Shown in pieces: positions 42,175 through 50,306 of a stretch of 64,000 nt of DNA. Within the stretch, counting starts at the first letter, position 1. The number at the start of each line of letters is the position of its first letter. Origin of the DNA: Thermodesulfovibrio sp. 3907-1M (GTDB lineage Bacteria > Nitrospirota > Thermodesulfovibrionia > Thermodesulfovibrionales > Thermodesulfovibrionaceae); assembly GCF_040450955.1 (NCBI RefSeq), contig NZ_CP144373.1, forward strand, positions 1,716,486-1,780,485, in the 5' to 3' direction. Below the pieces are notes generated by a model. The model did no database searches. It saw only the letters and a list, made by a program, of their open reading frames with translations, and was not told where the DNA came from. A program made the position numbers and the translations under genes.

Positions 42175-42816
42175 CTATAGTTTCTTGTAGCAAAACCACC
42201 AATCAAAGTTTTCAAACTGCTTAGTTCTTTCCTGAGCTGTTTTCACATCAGAGGCTGGTGGAATGATTACTTTGTCTCCTATTAATTCATTATTAGGCCA
42301 TCCTGCAGGAATTGCAACATTGTTAGCATCAGATGTCTGTAGTGCTTTTACTGCTCTAATAATCTCATCAATGTTTCTACCTACTTCCTGAGGATAATAA
42401 AGAACAAGTCTTAAAACACTCTGAGGATCAATAACAAATACAGCTCTGATTGTATTGGTTCCTTTTGCCGGCGAAATCATTCCAAAAGATCTTGCTATTT
42501 CTCCCATATCATCTGCAATAATTGGAAAAGTTATTTCCACTCCAAGTTTTTCTTTAATCCATTCAATCCATTTAATATGAGAGAATACTTGATCAATTGA
42601 AAGCCCAATAAGCTCACAATTTAATGCTTTAAATTCATCAATTCGCTTCTGGAAAGCAACAAACTCTGTTGTGCAAACAGGCGTGAAGTCTGCAGGATGA
42701 CTGAACAAAACTACCCATTTCTCTGCATAATCACCGGGGAAATTAATGATTCCGTGCGTTGTTTTTACTTTTCTGTTTTCAATTTTCTCACCTAATAAAG
42801 GCATTCTTACATCCAT
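42175..42816 (-). CDS. Peroxiredoxin, Prx6/1-Cys type
   Basis: 213 residues from ATG 42816 with GGAGGTG upstream (ATG at residue 5 is also possible). Peroxidatic cysteine C48 in [11 protein letters not shown], Arg in IRAVFVIDP. Long C-terminal segment as in Prx6. A further cysteine lies at C209 in [10 protein letters not shown] and one near 68, so a resolving role is possible, unlike true 1-Cys enzymes. Reduces peroxides. Divergent from the flavin oxidoreductase gene. Confidence 0.92.
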
Positions 42817-42843
42817 CTTATCACCTCCGATTTTATTTTAAAA

Positions 42844-42868
42844 TAATTATAAAATAGTAATTATAAAA
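42844..42868. promoter_or_regulatory. Direct repeat over the peroxiredoxin promoter
   Basis: TAATTATAAAA occurs at 42844-42854 and at 42858-42868, spaced by 14 bases start to start. It covers the -10 element and spacer of the peroxiredoxin promoter. Its composition resembles the TTATAAT half-sites of PerR boxes, and a Fur/PerR-type gene lies at 47003. Operator function is inferred. Confidence 0.4.
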
Positions 42869-42917: not shown

Positions 42918-43898
42918 ATGAAAGAGCTATTGGTTGCCATAATTGGTGCAGGTCCTGCAGGTATTGCTGCAGCAGTTGAATTGAAAACAGCAGGCATAAA
43001 GAATATTGCAATTTTTGAGAAAGCTGGTAATCTTTGTTACACAATACGAAGGCTTTATCCTGAAGGTAAAAGAGTGGATAGAAATTACAAAGGCATGAAT
43101 ATAGCTTTAGAGGGAGTATGTTCTTTTGAAACAGAAACAAAAGAGCAATTTCTTGAACGGATGGAGAAATATATTAAAGATTATCAGGTAGAAATTTTTT
43201 ATAACACAGAAATTAACGGGCTGCAAAAGAACGGAGAATTTTATATTATTAAAGCTGGCACATGTTCTGTTGCCAGAGCATATGCGGTGGTTATTGCTAC
43301 AGGAGTTTTTGATAAGCCTAAAAAGCCATCATATCCAATTCCTGAAGAAGTAAAACACAGAGTTTTTTTTGAACTTCCAAAAGAGTTGCCTGAAGGAGAA
43401 AAAATACTTGTGGTTGGAGGAGGGAATACAGCTGCTGAACTTGCCTGTATTCTATCAGGAAGGTGTGATGTATATATATCATACCGAAGACCTGAATTTT
43501 TTAGAATAAATGAAGAAAATCTTAGAGAGCTTGAAAAGAGAAAAGATAAAATAACCTTTTTTTTGGGCACAGAGATAAAGGGAGTTGAACCTGAAAAGGA
43601 AGGAGTAAAAGTAATCTTCACTGATGGGTATACTGAAGTATTTTCAAAGATTTTTTACTGTCTTGGAGGAAGCACACCAAGAAACTTTCTTGAGAAAATA
43701 GGTGTAAGATTTAAAGATTCACTCCCGGACATTGATGAATTTGGAGAGAGCAATCTTGAAAGAGTATTTCTTGTTGGTGATGTAGCAGTTAAAAGAGGCA
43801 GTATAGTTCATGCATTTAATTCAGCGCACAGGGCTGTAAAAAGAATTATTGAGAAATATTCGCTTATTTATATTCAAAATTTAAAGTTCAAAGTTTAA
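42918..43898 (+). CDS. FAD/NAD(P)-dependent oxidoreductase, thioredoxin-reductase-like without CxxC
   Basis: 326 residues. FAD Rossmann motif GAGPAGIAAAV (10-20), NAD(P) motif VVGGGNTAAELA (near 165), and the C-terminal FAD segment VFLVGDVA (near 290). The redox CxxC of thioredoxin reductase is absent, as in ferredoxin/flavodoxin-reductase-like and YpdA-like relatives; the family cysteine in the GxGPC position of YpdA is Ala here. Substrate unknown. The divergent peroxiredoxin suggests it may feed electrons to peroxide defence, which is only inference. Confidence 0.8.
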   Translation: MKELLVAIIGAGPAGIAAAVELKTAGIKNIAIFEKAGNLCYTIRRLYPEGKRVDRNYKGMNIALEGVCSFETETKEQFLERMEKYIKDYQVEIFYNTEINGLQKNGEFYIIKAGTCSVARAYAVVIATGVFDKPKKPSYPIPEEVKHRVFFELPKELPEGEKILVVGGGNTAAELACILSGRCDVYISYRRPEFFRINEENLRELEKRKDKITFFLGTEIKGVEPEKEGVKVIFTDGYTEVFSKIFYCLGGSTPRNFLEKIGVRFKDSLPDIDEFGESNLERVFLVGDVAVKRGSIVHAFNSAHRAVKRIIEKYSLIYIQNLKFKV

Positions 43899-46804: not shown

Positions 46805-46829
46805 TGGTTTTTAGCTCAGTCTCTCCCTT

Positions 46830-46912
46830 TCCCTACGCCGGCATTACCCGGATCAGGTTCAAGGGGTCTTCCCTCATCGGGAACTCTCAGGTCCTTTGAC
46901 CTCCCCCAGGGA
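46830..46912 (-). ncRNA. TPP riboswitch (thi box)
   Basis: The minus-strand RNA has the conserved thi-box pieces: closing stem TCCCTG (46912-46907) with TAGGGA, GGGGGAGG near the 5' side, CTGAGA (46889-46884) in P3 region, CCCTTGAACCTGATCCGGGT (46865-46846 approx.) and AATGCCGGCGTAGGG. A start near 46913 fits the promoter, so the aptamer begins the transcript. Binds thiamine pyrophosphate and controls thiSGEC with the terminator at 46771-46804. Confidence 0.95.
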
Positions 46913-46919
46913 TTAATTA

Positions 46920-46965: not shown

Positions 46966-46995
46966 TTGACAAACAAATCGTTTTTTATTTAGAAT
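46966..46995 (+). promoter_or_regulatory. Promoter of the Fur-type regulator gene, leaderless type
   Basis: TTGACA (46966-46971), 18-base spacer, TAGAAT (46990-46995). The ATG at 47003 follows after 7 bases and no ribosome site exists, so the transcript start should coincide with the start codon. Confidence 0.7.
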
Positions 46996-47002
46996 TGTTT
47001 TA

Positions 47003-47518
47003 ATGATACCGAAAATAAAATGGACACCGCAGAGGCTTGCTATTTTGAAGTATCTTGATGGAAATAAACAACATCCATCAGCAGAGGAGATTTATGAAGC
47101 CTTATCAAAGGATTTCCCTACAATGTCAGTTGCAACAGTTTACAATGTTTTAGAGTTTTTAAAAACAACGGGCAAAGTTAAAGAGATTCATGTTGATCCT
47201 GAGAAAAGAAGATTTGATCCTGATACAACTGAACATCATCATGCAATATGTGTAAGATGTAAAAAAGTTTTTGACATTTATCAAAAAGTTGAGCTTCCTG
47301 ATTTGTATCAGTATCTTCCTCAGTTTGACATTCTTGATGCTCAATTAACAGTACATGTTTTATGCCCTGAATGTAAAAAGAAAAAAGACATCAAAGTGGG
47401 ATTGAAAGAATATAAATGCTCTCAATGTGATTCAATCAGAACAGCAAAGCACAAACCTCAGAAATGTCCTTCCTGCGGAAGCAGAGGCACTTTGGAAGAA
47501 CTTAAACATCAAAATTAA
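47003..47518 (+). CDS. Fur/PerR-family repressor with additional C-terminal zinc-ribbon
   Basis: 171 residues, about 30 longer than usual. N-terminal winged helix 1-75 (TPQRLAILKYLDG, MSVATVYNVLEFL), the metal sensing HHHAICVRC (78-86) and structural zinc pairs C83-x2-C86 and C121-x2-C124. Then a separate ribbon C139-x2-C142 ... C155-x2-C158 (YKCSQC, KCPSCG) resembling a rubredoxin/desulforedoxin-type knuckle. Heads the ferritin-FprA-rubrerythrin gene set, so likely a peroxide- or iron-sensing repressor of it. The ribbon could sense redox state or simply bind zinc; cause unknown. Confidence 0.88.
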   Translation: MIPKIKWTPQRLAILKYLDGNKQHPSAEEIYEALSKDFPTMSVATVYNVLEFLKTTGKVKEIHVDPEKRRFDPDTTEHHHAICVRCKKVFDIYQKVELPDLYQYLPQFDILDAQLTVHVLCPECKKKKDIKVGLKEYKCSQCDSIRTAKHKPQKCPSCGSRGTLEELKHQN

Positions 47519-47551
47519 AAAAAATCAATTCATTAAAAACGGAGGTGCTTT

Positions 47552-47968
47552 ATGATAAGCAATGAGCTTATGAGTAAACTGCAGAAAGCAGTTGCAAGAG
47601 AGCTTCAGGTAAGCATTCAGTACATGTGGCAACATGTTCTGGCAAAGGGAATCAAAGCAGAGGCAGTGGGTAAACTTTTTAAGGAATTTGCTATTAATGA
47701 AATGATTCATGCTGAAAAGATTGCAGAAAGAATTGCCTTTTATGGAGGCATCCCAACAACACAACCAGACCCAATAACAATTGGTAAGAACCTCACGGAA
47801 ATGCTTCAGATTGACAAAAAAGCAGAAGAGGAAGCTGTTGCGCTTTACAAAGAAATTATCAAAATGGCTGAGAAAGAAGAAGACTATGTAACAAGGAAGC
47901 TCTTTGAGCAGATTCTTGAAGAAGAAGAGATTCATCTTGATAAATTCAGTTCTCTTCTTGAGGAATAA
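47552..47968 (+). CDS. Ferritin-like/bacterioferritin-type di-iron protein
   Basis: 138 residues, four-helix bundle. Metal ligands in ARELQVSIQYMWQH (helix A Glu), NEMIHAEKIAERI (E-x2-H, helix B) and QILEEEEIHLDKF (E-x2-H, helix D). Length and motifs fit the bacterioferritin/DPS-like 'ferritin-like domain' group of anaerobes. Could store iron or destroy peroxide. Ribosome site GGAGGTG; 3 bases before the flavodiiron gene. Confidence 0.88.
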   Translation: MISNELMSKLQKAVARELQVSIQYMWQHVLAKGIKAEAVGKLFKEFAINEMIHAEKIAERIAFYGGIPTTQPDPITIGKNLTEMLQIDKKAEEEAVALYKEIIKMAEKEEDYVTRKLFEQILEEEEIHLDKFSSLLEE

Positions 47969-47970
47969 AA

Positions 47971-49191
47971 ATGAAGCCAGTGGAATTAAAAAATCAGATT
48001 TACTGGGTTGGCGTTGTTGACTGGGCAATAAGAGATTTTCACGGTTATGAAACACCTCATGGAACAAGTTATAACAACTATCTTATAGTTGATGACGAAC
48101 CAGCACTGCTTGATGCAGTTCATCATGATTTTGTTCATATTTCAATTGAAAACATCTCAAGAATCATTGAGCCTAAAAAAATAAGGCACATTGTAATAAA
48201 TCACATTGAAAATGACCATGCTACAGGACTGGAAAAGATTTTAGAGATTGTTCCAAATGCAAATCTTTACATGACAGAAAGAGCCAAAAAGGGATTAAGC
48301 AGATTTATGGATTTATCCAGATATAAAGTCAATGTGGTAAAATCAGGAGATAGCCTCAAAACTGGAAAAAGAACCCTCCATTTCATTGAAACACCTATGA
48401 TGCATTGGCCTGACTCCATGTTTACCTATATTAAAGAAGAAAAACTGCTCGTAAGTCAGGACGCTTTTGGTCAGCACATGGCAACTGTAGAGAGATTTGA
48501 TGATGAGTTTGTTCAGAGCCGTTCAATGGAAGAGCTTGAAGATGCTGTTATTGATTACTATGCAAACATTCTTATGCCCTATGGAAATGTTATTAAGGCG
48601 AAAATTGAGGAAATAAAAAAGCTTGGCATTGAGATTGAAATGATAGCTCCAGACCACGGGGTTATTTGGCGTTCTCACATAGACAAAGTATTGAGTCTTT
48701 ATTCTAATATGGTTGATGCAAAAGCAAAATTAAGTGCAGTTATAGTCTATGATACAATGTGGCACAGCACTGAGCAGATGGTCTTTCCAATTGCAAAGGG
48801 GCTTGAAGATGAAGGGATTCCTGTAAAAATAATTAAACTCAGAGCAACTCCAAAATCAGTGGCAGTAAAGGAAGTTTGGAAGTCAAGGGGGGTTATAGTT
48901 GGTTGCCCCACATTAAATAATGGAGTTTTCCCATCAGTTGCTGAGTTTTTAAGTTATCTTAAAGGTCTAAGACCTAAAAACAGGCTATTTGCTGCATTCG
49001 GGAGTTATGGCTGGTCTGGTGAGGCAGTAAAAGACATGTATGAAATAGCTAAAGCAATGAAACTTGATGTTTTTGAACCGGGTATAAGAGTTTTATACAA
49101 ACCATCAGAGGAGGATCTGGCTAAATGCTATGAGTTTGGCATAGCCTTTGGAAAGGCTTTAAAAGAATATCATGCAAAAATGGAGGTGTAA
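47971..49191 (+). CDS. Flavodiiron protein (A-type flavoprotein, FprA-like)
   Basis: 406 residues. N-terminal metallo-beta-lactamase-like di-iron domain with NHIENDHATG (H-x-E-x-D-H, near 77-86), MHWPDSM (H near 147), SQDAFGQHM (D) and APDHGVIW (H near 227); C-terminal flavodoxin domain from about 255 (VIVYDTMWHSTEQMV) for FMN. Reduces O2 to water and/or NO to N2O in anaerobes. Rubrerythrin follows. Confidence 0.95.
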   Translation: MKPVELKNQIYWVGVVDWAIRDFHGYETPHGTSYNNYLIVDDEPALLDAVHHDFVHISIENISRIIEPKKIRHIVINHIENDHATGLEKILEIVPNANLYMTERAKKGLSRFMDLSRYKVNVVKSGDSLKTGKRTLHFIETPMMHWPDSMFTYIKEEKLLVSQDAFGQHMATVERFDDEFVQSRSMEELEDAVIDYYANILMPYGNVIKAKIEEIKKLGIEIEMIAPDHGVIWRSHIDKVLSLYSNMVDAKAKLSAVIVYDTMWHSTEQMVFPIAKGLEDEGIPVKIIKLRATPKSVAVKEVWKSRGVIVGCPTLNNGVFPSVAEFLSYLKGLRPKNRLFAAFGSYGWSGEAVKDMYEIAKAMKLDVFEPGIRVLYKPSEEDLAKCYEFGIAFGKALKEYHAKMEV

Positions 49192-49193
49192 AA

Positions 49194-49688
49194 ATGGAAA
49201 AAACACTTAAGAATTTGATGGAAGCCTTTGCAGGTGAGTCTCAGGCAAATAGAAAATATCTTGCCTTTGCAAAGAAAGCAGAGGAAGAAGGATACCCCGC
49301 AGTTGCTAAACTTTTCAAAGCTGCTGCTGATGCTGAAACGATTCATGCAATGAATCACCTAAAAGCTGCAAATGGAATTAAAAGCACAAAAGAAAATCTT
49401 GAAGCTGCCATCAGTGGAGAAACCTATGAATTTGAAAGCATGTATCCACCAATGATTAAAGATGCAGAAGCAGAAGGTGCTACTCAGGCAAAAAGAAGCT
49501 TTTACTATGCTAATGAAGTGGAAAAGGTTCATGCTGAGTTATTCAAAAAAGCCCTTGAAAATCTCGATAAAAAACTGGATGCTGACTACTATGTCTGTCA
49601 GGTATGCGGGCATACAGTAGAAGGTGAACCACCAGATAAATGTCCTGTTTGTGGTGCTCCCAAAAAGATGTATAAAAAAATTGAATAA
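49194..49688 (+). CDS. Rubrerythrin
   Basis: 164 residues. Di-iron four-helix domain (LMEAFAGESQANRKYLAFA, Glu pairs and ETIHAMNHL, VEKVHAELF), then a rubredoxin-like tail C135-x2-C138 ... C150-x2-C153 (YYVCQVCGH...KCPVCG). Reduces peroxide. Two bases after the flavodiiron gene, closing the redox-defence operon before a strong terminator. Confidence 0.96.
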   Translation: MEKTLKNLMEAFAGESQANRKYLAFAKKAEEEGYPAVAKLFKAAADAETIHAMNHLKAANGIKSTKENLEAAISGETYEFESMYPPMIKDAEAEGATQAKRSFYYANEVEKVHAELFKKALENLDKKLDADYYVCQVCGHTVEGEPPDKCPVCGAPKKMYKKIE

Positions 49689-49693
49689 ACCAA

Positions 49694-49721
49694 AGCTCCC
49701 TCCATTCTGGAGGGAGCTTTT
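49694..49721 (+). terminator. Intrinsic terminator after rubrerythrin
   Basis: AGCTCCCTCCA (49694-49704), loop TTC, TGGAGGGAGCT (49708-49718), then TTTT. A perfect 11-pair stem. The next gene's ATG begins only 9-10 bases later, leaving no room for a separate promoter or ribosome site. Confidence 0.9.
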
Positions 49722-49730
49722 ACAAAAAAA

Positions 49731-50306
49731 ATGAAAATTCTTGCTATACTGGGTTCACCAAGAAAGGGAAACTCTGAAATGCTTCTCAATGAAGCAATAA
49801 AGCTCTGTAGTGAAAAAAATTATGAGATAAATCTCATAAAAGCATGTGAACTAAACATCTCAGGCTGCACTGCCTGTGATGGCTGTAAAGATACGGGTGA
49901 ATGCATTATTCATGATGATATGGATAAAATCTATCCTTTACTAAGAGAGGCAAACAGAATCATAATTGCATCACCCATATTCTTTTTTGGTGTTCCAGCC
50001 CAATTAAAGCTTATTATTGACCGATGTCAGTGCTTCTGGTATGAAAAATATGTTTTAAAAAGACCGATTCCGGAAAAAGAGTTTAAAAGAAAAGCTCTCA
50101 TCATGCTTGTTGGTGGGATGAAAAAGGGACAAATTGGAGTTACCTGTTCAGAGGCAACACTGAAAGCCTTTCTCAGAACAATCAATGTGAGTGAGCACAG
50201 AACAATCTCTTACCTCGGATATGAAGAACCCGGCTCTTTATTGAAAAATTATGAGGTAATCAATGATTTAAAAAACGCTGTGATAGAATTGTTAGAAAAT
50301 GATTGA
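49731..50306 (+). CDS. Iron-sulfur flavoprotein (NADPH-dependent FMN reductase fold)
   Basis: 191 residues. Flavodoxin-like fold with GSPRKGNSEML (8-18) for FMN phosphate and a compact cysteine motif C46-x2-C49-x2-C52-x5-C58 for a 4Fe-4S cluster, the iron-sulfur flavoprotein (ISF) plan. Transfers electrons, probably from ferredoxin, to an oxidant. Starts right after the rubrerythrin terminator with no ribosome site, so it may be read through or made from an unseen promoter inside the terminator. Overlaps the radical SAM gene by 8 bases. Confidence 0.85.
   Translation: MKILAILGSPRKGNSEMLLNEAIKLCSEKNYEINLIKACELNISGCTACDGCKDTGECIIHDDMDKIYPLLREANRIIIASPIFFFGVPAQLKLIIDRCQCFWYEKYVLKRPIPEKEFKRKALIMLVGGMKKGQIGVTCSEATLKAFLRTINVSEHRTISYLGYEEPGSLLKNYEVINDLKNAVIELLEND

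Follow-up and report, generated by a model that had tools for sequence, protein, structure and literature searches.

A Predicted PerR Repressor Fused to a Rubredoxin-like Ribbon in the Genus Thermodesulfovibrio

The Fur-family gene that precedes a set of oxygen- and peroxide-handling genes in Thermodesulfovibrio sp. 3907-1M appears to encode a peroxide repressor of the PerR type, the tail of which would be the product of a downstream neighbour gene, rckp, permanently fused to perR. The fused origin of the tail and the PerR function of the core, taken together, are considered probable. The window analysed is a stretch of 64,000 nucleotides (G000:C1:1716486-1780485), which is part of the complete 1.94-Mb genome; its features are collected in Table 1. 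A sequence-only reading of this DNA had pointed out the cysteines of the tail and the redox genes behind it. The present analysis adds to it the identification of the tail as a fused neighbour gene, a predicted PerR box over the promoter, and a likely regulon member located about 4 kb away.

Table 1. Features of the perR locus and of the predicted regulon member (positions in the window)
Feature	Position	Strand	Evidence or remark
1-Cys type peroxiredoxin, 213 aa, predicted regulon member	42175..42816	-	PF00578 106.1 bits + PF10417
Predicted PerR box TTATAATTATTTTAA ahead of the peroxiredoxin gene	42838..42852	-	13/14 B. subtilis PerR consensus matches
Sigma-70-type perR promoter: TTGACA (46966-46971), 18-nt spacer, TAGAAT (46990-46995)	46966..46995	+	11/12 consensus matches
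Predicted PerR operator TTAGAATTGTTTTAA, 7-1-7 inverted repeat	46989..47003	+	footprint in 15 genus members
perR ORF	47003-47518	+	171 aa
PerR core: winged helix and metal sites, residues 1-131	47003..47395	+	PF01475, phmmer, ligand alignment
Fused RCKP-type rubredoxin-like ribbon, residues 132-171 with stop	47396..47518	+	NF045720, hhalign, AF2, Foldseek
Ferritin-like di-iron family protein, 138 aa	47552..47968	+	PF00210 106 bits; conserved next gene in genus
Flavodiiron protein (rubredoxin:oxygen oxidoreductase type), 406 aa	47971..49191	+	PF19583 + PF00258
Rubrerythrin with its own C-terminal rubredoxin-like domain, 164 aa	49194..49688	+	PF02915 90.1 bits, PF21349 42.2 bits
13-pair hairpin after rubrerythrin, possible operon end	49692..49720	.	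then TTTT on +
NADPH-dependent FMN reductase-like flavoprotein	49731..50306	+	PF03358 77.6 bits

The PerR Core

The FUR family model PF01475 matches residues 5-95 with 97.6 bits, compared to a cut-off of 23.1, which indicates the presence of the winged-helix and dimerisation domain, and B. subtilis PerR (PDB 2fe3) matches residues 5-128 with E = 1.5e-26 in a phmmer search. In the alignment, the regulatory metal site is complete: H24, D72, H78, H80 and D91 correspond to H37, D85, H91, H93 and D104 of the B. subtilis protein. It is the Asp at position 104 that distinguishes PerR from most Fur proteins. The structural Zn(Cys)4 site is complete as well, and its two CXXC pairs, C83/C86 and C121/C124, align with C96/C99 and C136/C139 of B. 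subtilis PerR. With all regulatory and structural metal ligands conserved, the core can be read as an orthodox PerR. The cut-offs of the NCBIfam PerR equivalogs are missed, the best model being NF052545 (119.7 bits vs a cut-off of 180); since models of this type were made for other clades, the miss concerns naming and does not touch what defines PerR at large.

The FUR fold is common to this protein and B. subtilis PerR (2fe3, 3f8n), and 122-127 positions align at about 40% identity. Both have the same regulatory metal ligands, the structural Zn(Cys)4 site and the 7-1-7 type of box, whereas the B. subtilis protein has no third Cys4 ribbon. The latter protein also has a longer N-terminal helix and a larger regulon.

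The C-Terminal Ribbon

Residues 136-166 contain an extra CX2C-X12-CX2C ribbon formed by C139, C142, C155 and C158. The ORF and the alignment give exactly the four cysteines that had been noted beyond the two normal zinc pairs. The tail scores 28.2 bits against the RCKP-type rubredoxin-like domain NF045720, which is under the curated cut-off of 45, and can be considered a derived homologue of this family, not classed as a member. Against the rubrerythrin rubredoxin-like domain PF21349 it scores 19.6 bits, under the gathering cut-off of 26.5; a stand-alone copy in the same genome clears this cut-off with 28.5 bits. These library matches are weak, yet they agree on one kind of domain. In a profile comparison by hhalign, the fused tail matches the stand-alone RCKP proteins with a probability of 98.5% and an identity of 41%.

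Both CX2C knuckles of the RCKP-type domain are present in the tail. The fifth cysteine of the RCKP motif is missing, its place being taken by H150, and all 15 fused proteins of the genus have KHKP here, whereas stand-alone copies carry RCKP or KCKP and never KHKP. In this species the first knuckle (CSQCD) is also devoid of its usual glycine. The stand-alone RCKP-type protein (NF045720) found beside perR in Nitrospirota therefore has a homologous CX2C-X12-CX2C ribbon and differs from the fused form in being a free protein of 35-60 aa with the fifth cysteine. None of the four tail cysteines varies across 15 genus members, in which PerR has only 70-90% identity to the present protein. Given this invariance and the hhalign result, the tail is not a product of chance, and the agreement of 15 genomes rules out a sequencing error.

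Modelled alone with AlphaFold2, the tail has three strands and a pLDDT of 87. The best solved matches of this model in Foldseek are rubrerythrin rubredoxin-like domains (1ryt, 1.5 A rmsd); the earlier likening of the tail to the ribbon of rubrerythrin is supported. Next come the MCM and LapB ribbons, and none of the matches is below E 0.04, as is expected at 41 residues. The modelled fold supports a Cys4 ribbon that would fit Zn and Fe alike. The full-length model is weak (mean pLDDT 74, pTM 0.49); it matches PerR and leaves the position of the ribbon relative to PerR unplaced, and for this reason a placement of the ribbon on PerR was dropped.

Distribution and Origin of the Fusion

The fused PerR is present in 15 of the 16 Thermodesulfovibrio genomes; in the sixteenth, a genome of 66% completeness, the search found no more than a paralogue. 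Absence of the tail from all relatives, which had been named in advance as a test, is not what is observed, as every genus genome with the locus retains it (15/15). Wherever the contig allows this to be seen, the tailed PerR of the genus is followed by the same genes.

In other families the ribbon is frequently encoded by a gene of its own. A separate ribbon gene of 35-57 aa directly follows perR in 15 of 34 loci from the order's other families; two of the 34 have a continuous ORF and 17 have none. In 20 further loci, selected because they had an RCKP match or a frame of fused size, perR and rckp are adjacent genes in 12 cases and a continuous ORF in three. Both in the order and in the other families of the phylum, the stand-alone gene (35-60 aa) is often located directly 3' of perR. 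Since the ribbon is a separate neighbour gene of perR in these families and the tail matches the stand-alone proteins by profile, the tail is most probably the product of a gene fusion, with the downstream neighbour rckp now permanently joined to perR.

In Thermodesulfovibrio, the perR stop codon and both the ribosome-binding site and the start codon of rckp are lost, and the linker is unrelated. On the phylogenetic tree the PerR proteins of the genus form one clade with a support of 99/100 and a long branch. In the G052, G315, G359 and G188 genomes, the perR stop codon is absent and the rckp GGAGGTG..ATG is retained in frame, e.g., AAAGGAGGTGTTAATATGGCAGTC. These genomes may produce both the fused and the separate forms, since a ribosome-binding site and a start codon are still in place, and the junctions in G052/G359/G315 and in G188 would represent an intermediate state of the fusion. 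The read-through ORFs in other Nitrospirota lineages are less settled than the fusion in the genus. An ancestral fusion is disfavoured: the genes are separate in other families, and other fused ORFs retain the rckp start site. The fused ORF of G030 (L076) was left uncounted as an independent fusion. Its PerR is devoid of the C-terminal Cys pair and of D104, and an apparent frameshift points to a possible assembly error. A pattern scan of genome contigs for the fusion in other phyla returned Thermodesulfovibrio and near relatives only, with patterns taken from the DNA-binding domain of the genus, by which distant fusions would be missed.

A stand-alone rckp gene is still present elsewhere in the genomes of the genus, which would leave the fused copy free to specialise. 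It encodes a protein of 34-37 aa and is followed by a rubredoxin gene (L081-L091; the copy of the present genome is L083, G000:C1:304161-304259).

The pN/pS ratio of the tail is 0.19. It lies between the 0.11 of the DNA-binding domain and the 0.35 of the dimer/sensor part of PerR; synonymous changes approach saturation. The tail is thus under strong purifying selection. A neutral origin would mean that the loss of a stop codon joined two neighbours and the tail merely persists. The read-through ORFs with a retained rckp start site in other lineages indicate that fusions arise easily. However, the tail is more constrained than the sensor domain, and within IRTAKHKPQKC, a stretch of 11 residues, the only variation is at a single position in one of the 15 genomes, with synonymous sites nearly saturated. 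Neutral read-through is disfavoured by the pN/pS values and seems very improbable. Retention of the fusion in every species with the gene suggests that the ribbon matters to the switch.

The perR Promoter and Operator

In 15 genus members the TTGACA element of the perR promoter is invariant, and the -10 element is TAGAAT, TATAAT or TAAAAT. The sequence common to the genus upstream of perR is TTTGACAAATAAAT..TTTTTTATTTAGAATTATTTTAATG. The predicted operator (G000:C1:1763474-1763488 in the present genome) overlaps the -10 element and ends on the A of the ATG. Like the PerR box of B. subtilis, TTATAATnATTATAA, it has the form of a 15-bp inverted repeat, and in two species (L039, L045) the site is the perfect palindrome TTAGAATTATTCTAA. 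The ATG is located 7 nt past the -10 element here and about 7-10 nt past it in 15/15 genus members, and no Shine-Dalgarno sequence was found before perR in any of the 15. As the start codon thus coincides with the expected transcription start, the perR mRNA is probably leaderless, with the operator touching the ATG.

A TPP riboswitch (RF00059, 78.6 bits; window 46812-46917, minus strand) is located ahead of the divergent thiS/thiG/thiE/thiC genes; the promoters of the riboswitch and of perR stand back to back.

The Operon Downstream of perR

The ferritin-like, flavodiiron and rubrerythrin domains of the genes following perR were confirmed, so that a Fur/PerR repressor does head genes for handling O2 and peroxide, as the sequence-only reading had proposed. 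The hairpin after the rubrerythrin gene was predicted on the minus strand; being an inverted repeat, it reads alike on the plus strand. The FMN reductase-like gene follows rbr in 13 of the 13 genus loci whose contigs extend that far and is perhaps outside the operon.

In Desulfovibrio vulgaris and Geobacter, perR is already known to lead operons that contain rubrerythrin together with flavodiiron or rubredoxin-like genes (PMC545781). In D. vulgaris, perR, rbr and rdl constitute one operon (PMC545781), in which perR shares its transcript with the genes for rubrerythrin and a small protein described as rubredoxin-like; however, the genes are separate, rdl is the last one, and the predicted operator is unlike the present one. 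In the Geobacter perR-rbr-roo operon (PMC545781), PerR likewise heads the rubrerythrin and flavodiiron (Roo) genes and the operator overlaps the -10 element, whereas the operator sequence is unlike and a fused ribbon is not reported. The suggestion that the architecture is undescribed is therefore upheld for the fusion, for which no described counterpart was found in the literature searched, and not for its parts and the perR-led operon, which are of known kinds. Published descriptions of a rubredoxin-like ribbon joined to PerR, or of perR-rckp gene pairs, were not found in a search that left subscription journals and other phyla outside its scope.

AhpC-type peroxiredoxin genes near perR in related Nitrospirota have an in-frame TGA at the position of the peroxidatic Cys of homologues (FYPADFTFV-TGA-ATEF), and a conserved hairpin-like GCTCTGGCAGAGC comes after the TGA. 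These are probably selenocysteine peroxiredoxins (L022, L025, L026, L028, L031, L049, L050, L070, L073-L075, L093, L112, L139).

The Predicted Regulon

PerR boxes are predicted at the promoter of perR itself and at peroxide genes. With one mismatch allowed, the box pattern occurs at 10 distinct places of the genome, which include, besides perR, the peroxiredoxin gene and a rubredoxin gene with a rubrerythrin-like gene behind it. The peroxiredoxin box, 21 bp upstream of its gene and about 4 kb from perR in the same window, is kept in 9/10 genus orthologues, with the exact TTATAATAATTATAA in four congeners; the box of the rubredoxin gene is kept in nearly all genus members. Several of these boxes in the genus are identical to the B. 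subtilis consensus. Among the 64 genes of the window, a box with 13/14 matches within 100 bp upstream is found only for the divergent pair of the peroxiredoxin and FAD-oxidoreductase genes, for which it is one common site. Because this box (42838-42852) lies between the divergent genes, namely the peroxiredoxin gene (42175-42816, minus strand) and the pyridine-nucleotide-disulphide oxidoreductase gene (42918-43898, plus strand), both may be PerR targets. A PerR-like box is also present just upstream of the stand-alone rckp gene in 4-6 of 11 genus species.

The genome-wide count of box-like sites shows no excess over the reversed-pattern control; the case for the regulon is made by conservation and by which genes carry the boxes, not by enrichment. 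An OsmC-family gene (G000:C1:630010) was ruled out as a regulon member, its box not being conserved in the genus. The genome also encodes a second Fur-family regulator of 156 aa (G000:C1:1630119-1630427, L001) with Asp at the PerR-type position (..CGKIIDYE..). Some of the boxes could be used by this protein as well, or by it alone, a point against the explanation favoured here.

Discussion

Considering the ligands and the boxes, metal-loaded PerR would bind the box across the -10 element and repress its own operon and other sites. Peroxide would then release the genes by oxidising H24/H78, the histidines that ligate the iron, as happens in B. subtilis PerR, and the derepressed operon would supply iron storage, O2 reduction and peroxide reduction. 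The ribbon would hold one Zn or Fe in its Cys4 site. As for its role, the chances are about evenly balanced that it is an accessory module for docking, stabilisation or electron exchange with redox partners, and not the primary sensor. Its derivation from a small stand-alone protein beside perR fits an electron-transfer, docking or stabilising module equally.

Electron transfer of the rubredoxin type (Fe-Cys4), with rubrerythrin, the flavodiiron protein or a reductase as partners, is possible, if rather doubtful. The single operon of perR, rbr and rdl in D. vulgaris (PMC545781) argues for it. So do the closest fold matches, which are rubrerythrin rubredoxin-like domains, and the stand-alone rckp genes of the genus, which precede a rubredoxin gene. 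The tether to PerR would then stem only from the gene neighbourhood or serve to re-reduce the PerR iron, and this part is likewise open to considerable doubt. However, repressors are normally scarce, and a scarce protein is a poor site for bulk electron transfer; in addition, the first knuckle here has no usual glycine, and the MCM and LapB ribbons fit the model nearly as well as rubrerythrin does.

Possibly the ribbon is a second sensor, the metal binding or loss of which, or the oxidation of its cysteines, changes how PerR binds DNA, which would let the repressor combine two inputs; we consider this unlikely. In its favour, the genus has kept the ribbon fixed and under constraint, the ribbon is tied to the peroxide repressor, its stand-alone homologue adjoins perR across much of the phylum, and the KHKP that replaces RCKP, invariant in the fused form of the genus and absent from stand-alone copies, suggests a new job. 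On the other hand, PerR already has a complete peroxide-sensing site, and the fused form has lost a cysteine and gained none. The stand-alone copy persists in the genus, where it is probably controlled by PerR in some species, and so the usual work of the ribbon domain needs no repressor. The more specific proposal, a Cys4 metal or redox centre gating DNA binding, through which PerR also reads the redox state of the rubredoxin pool or the metal supply, has an equally small chance of being right.

The accessory module thus remains the favoured reading of the ribbon. For a thermophilic sulfate reducer, the analysis provides a predicted PerR operator and a small regulon, none of which has been described before as far as was searched. 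If the reading of a second input is true, the widespread perR-rckp pairs would be a two-protein version of the same switch. Small rubredoxin-like proteins adjoin perR in many Nitrospirota, and a genus in which both are permanently one protein is a clue to their joint action; the permanent fusion makes this question directly testable.
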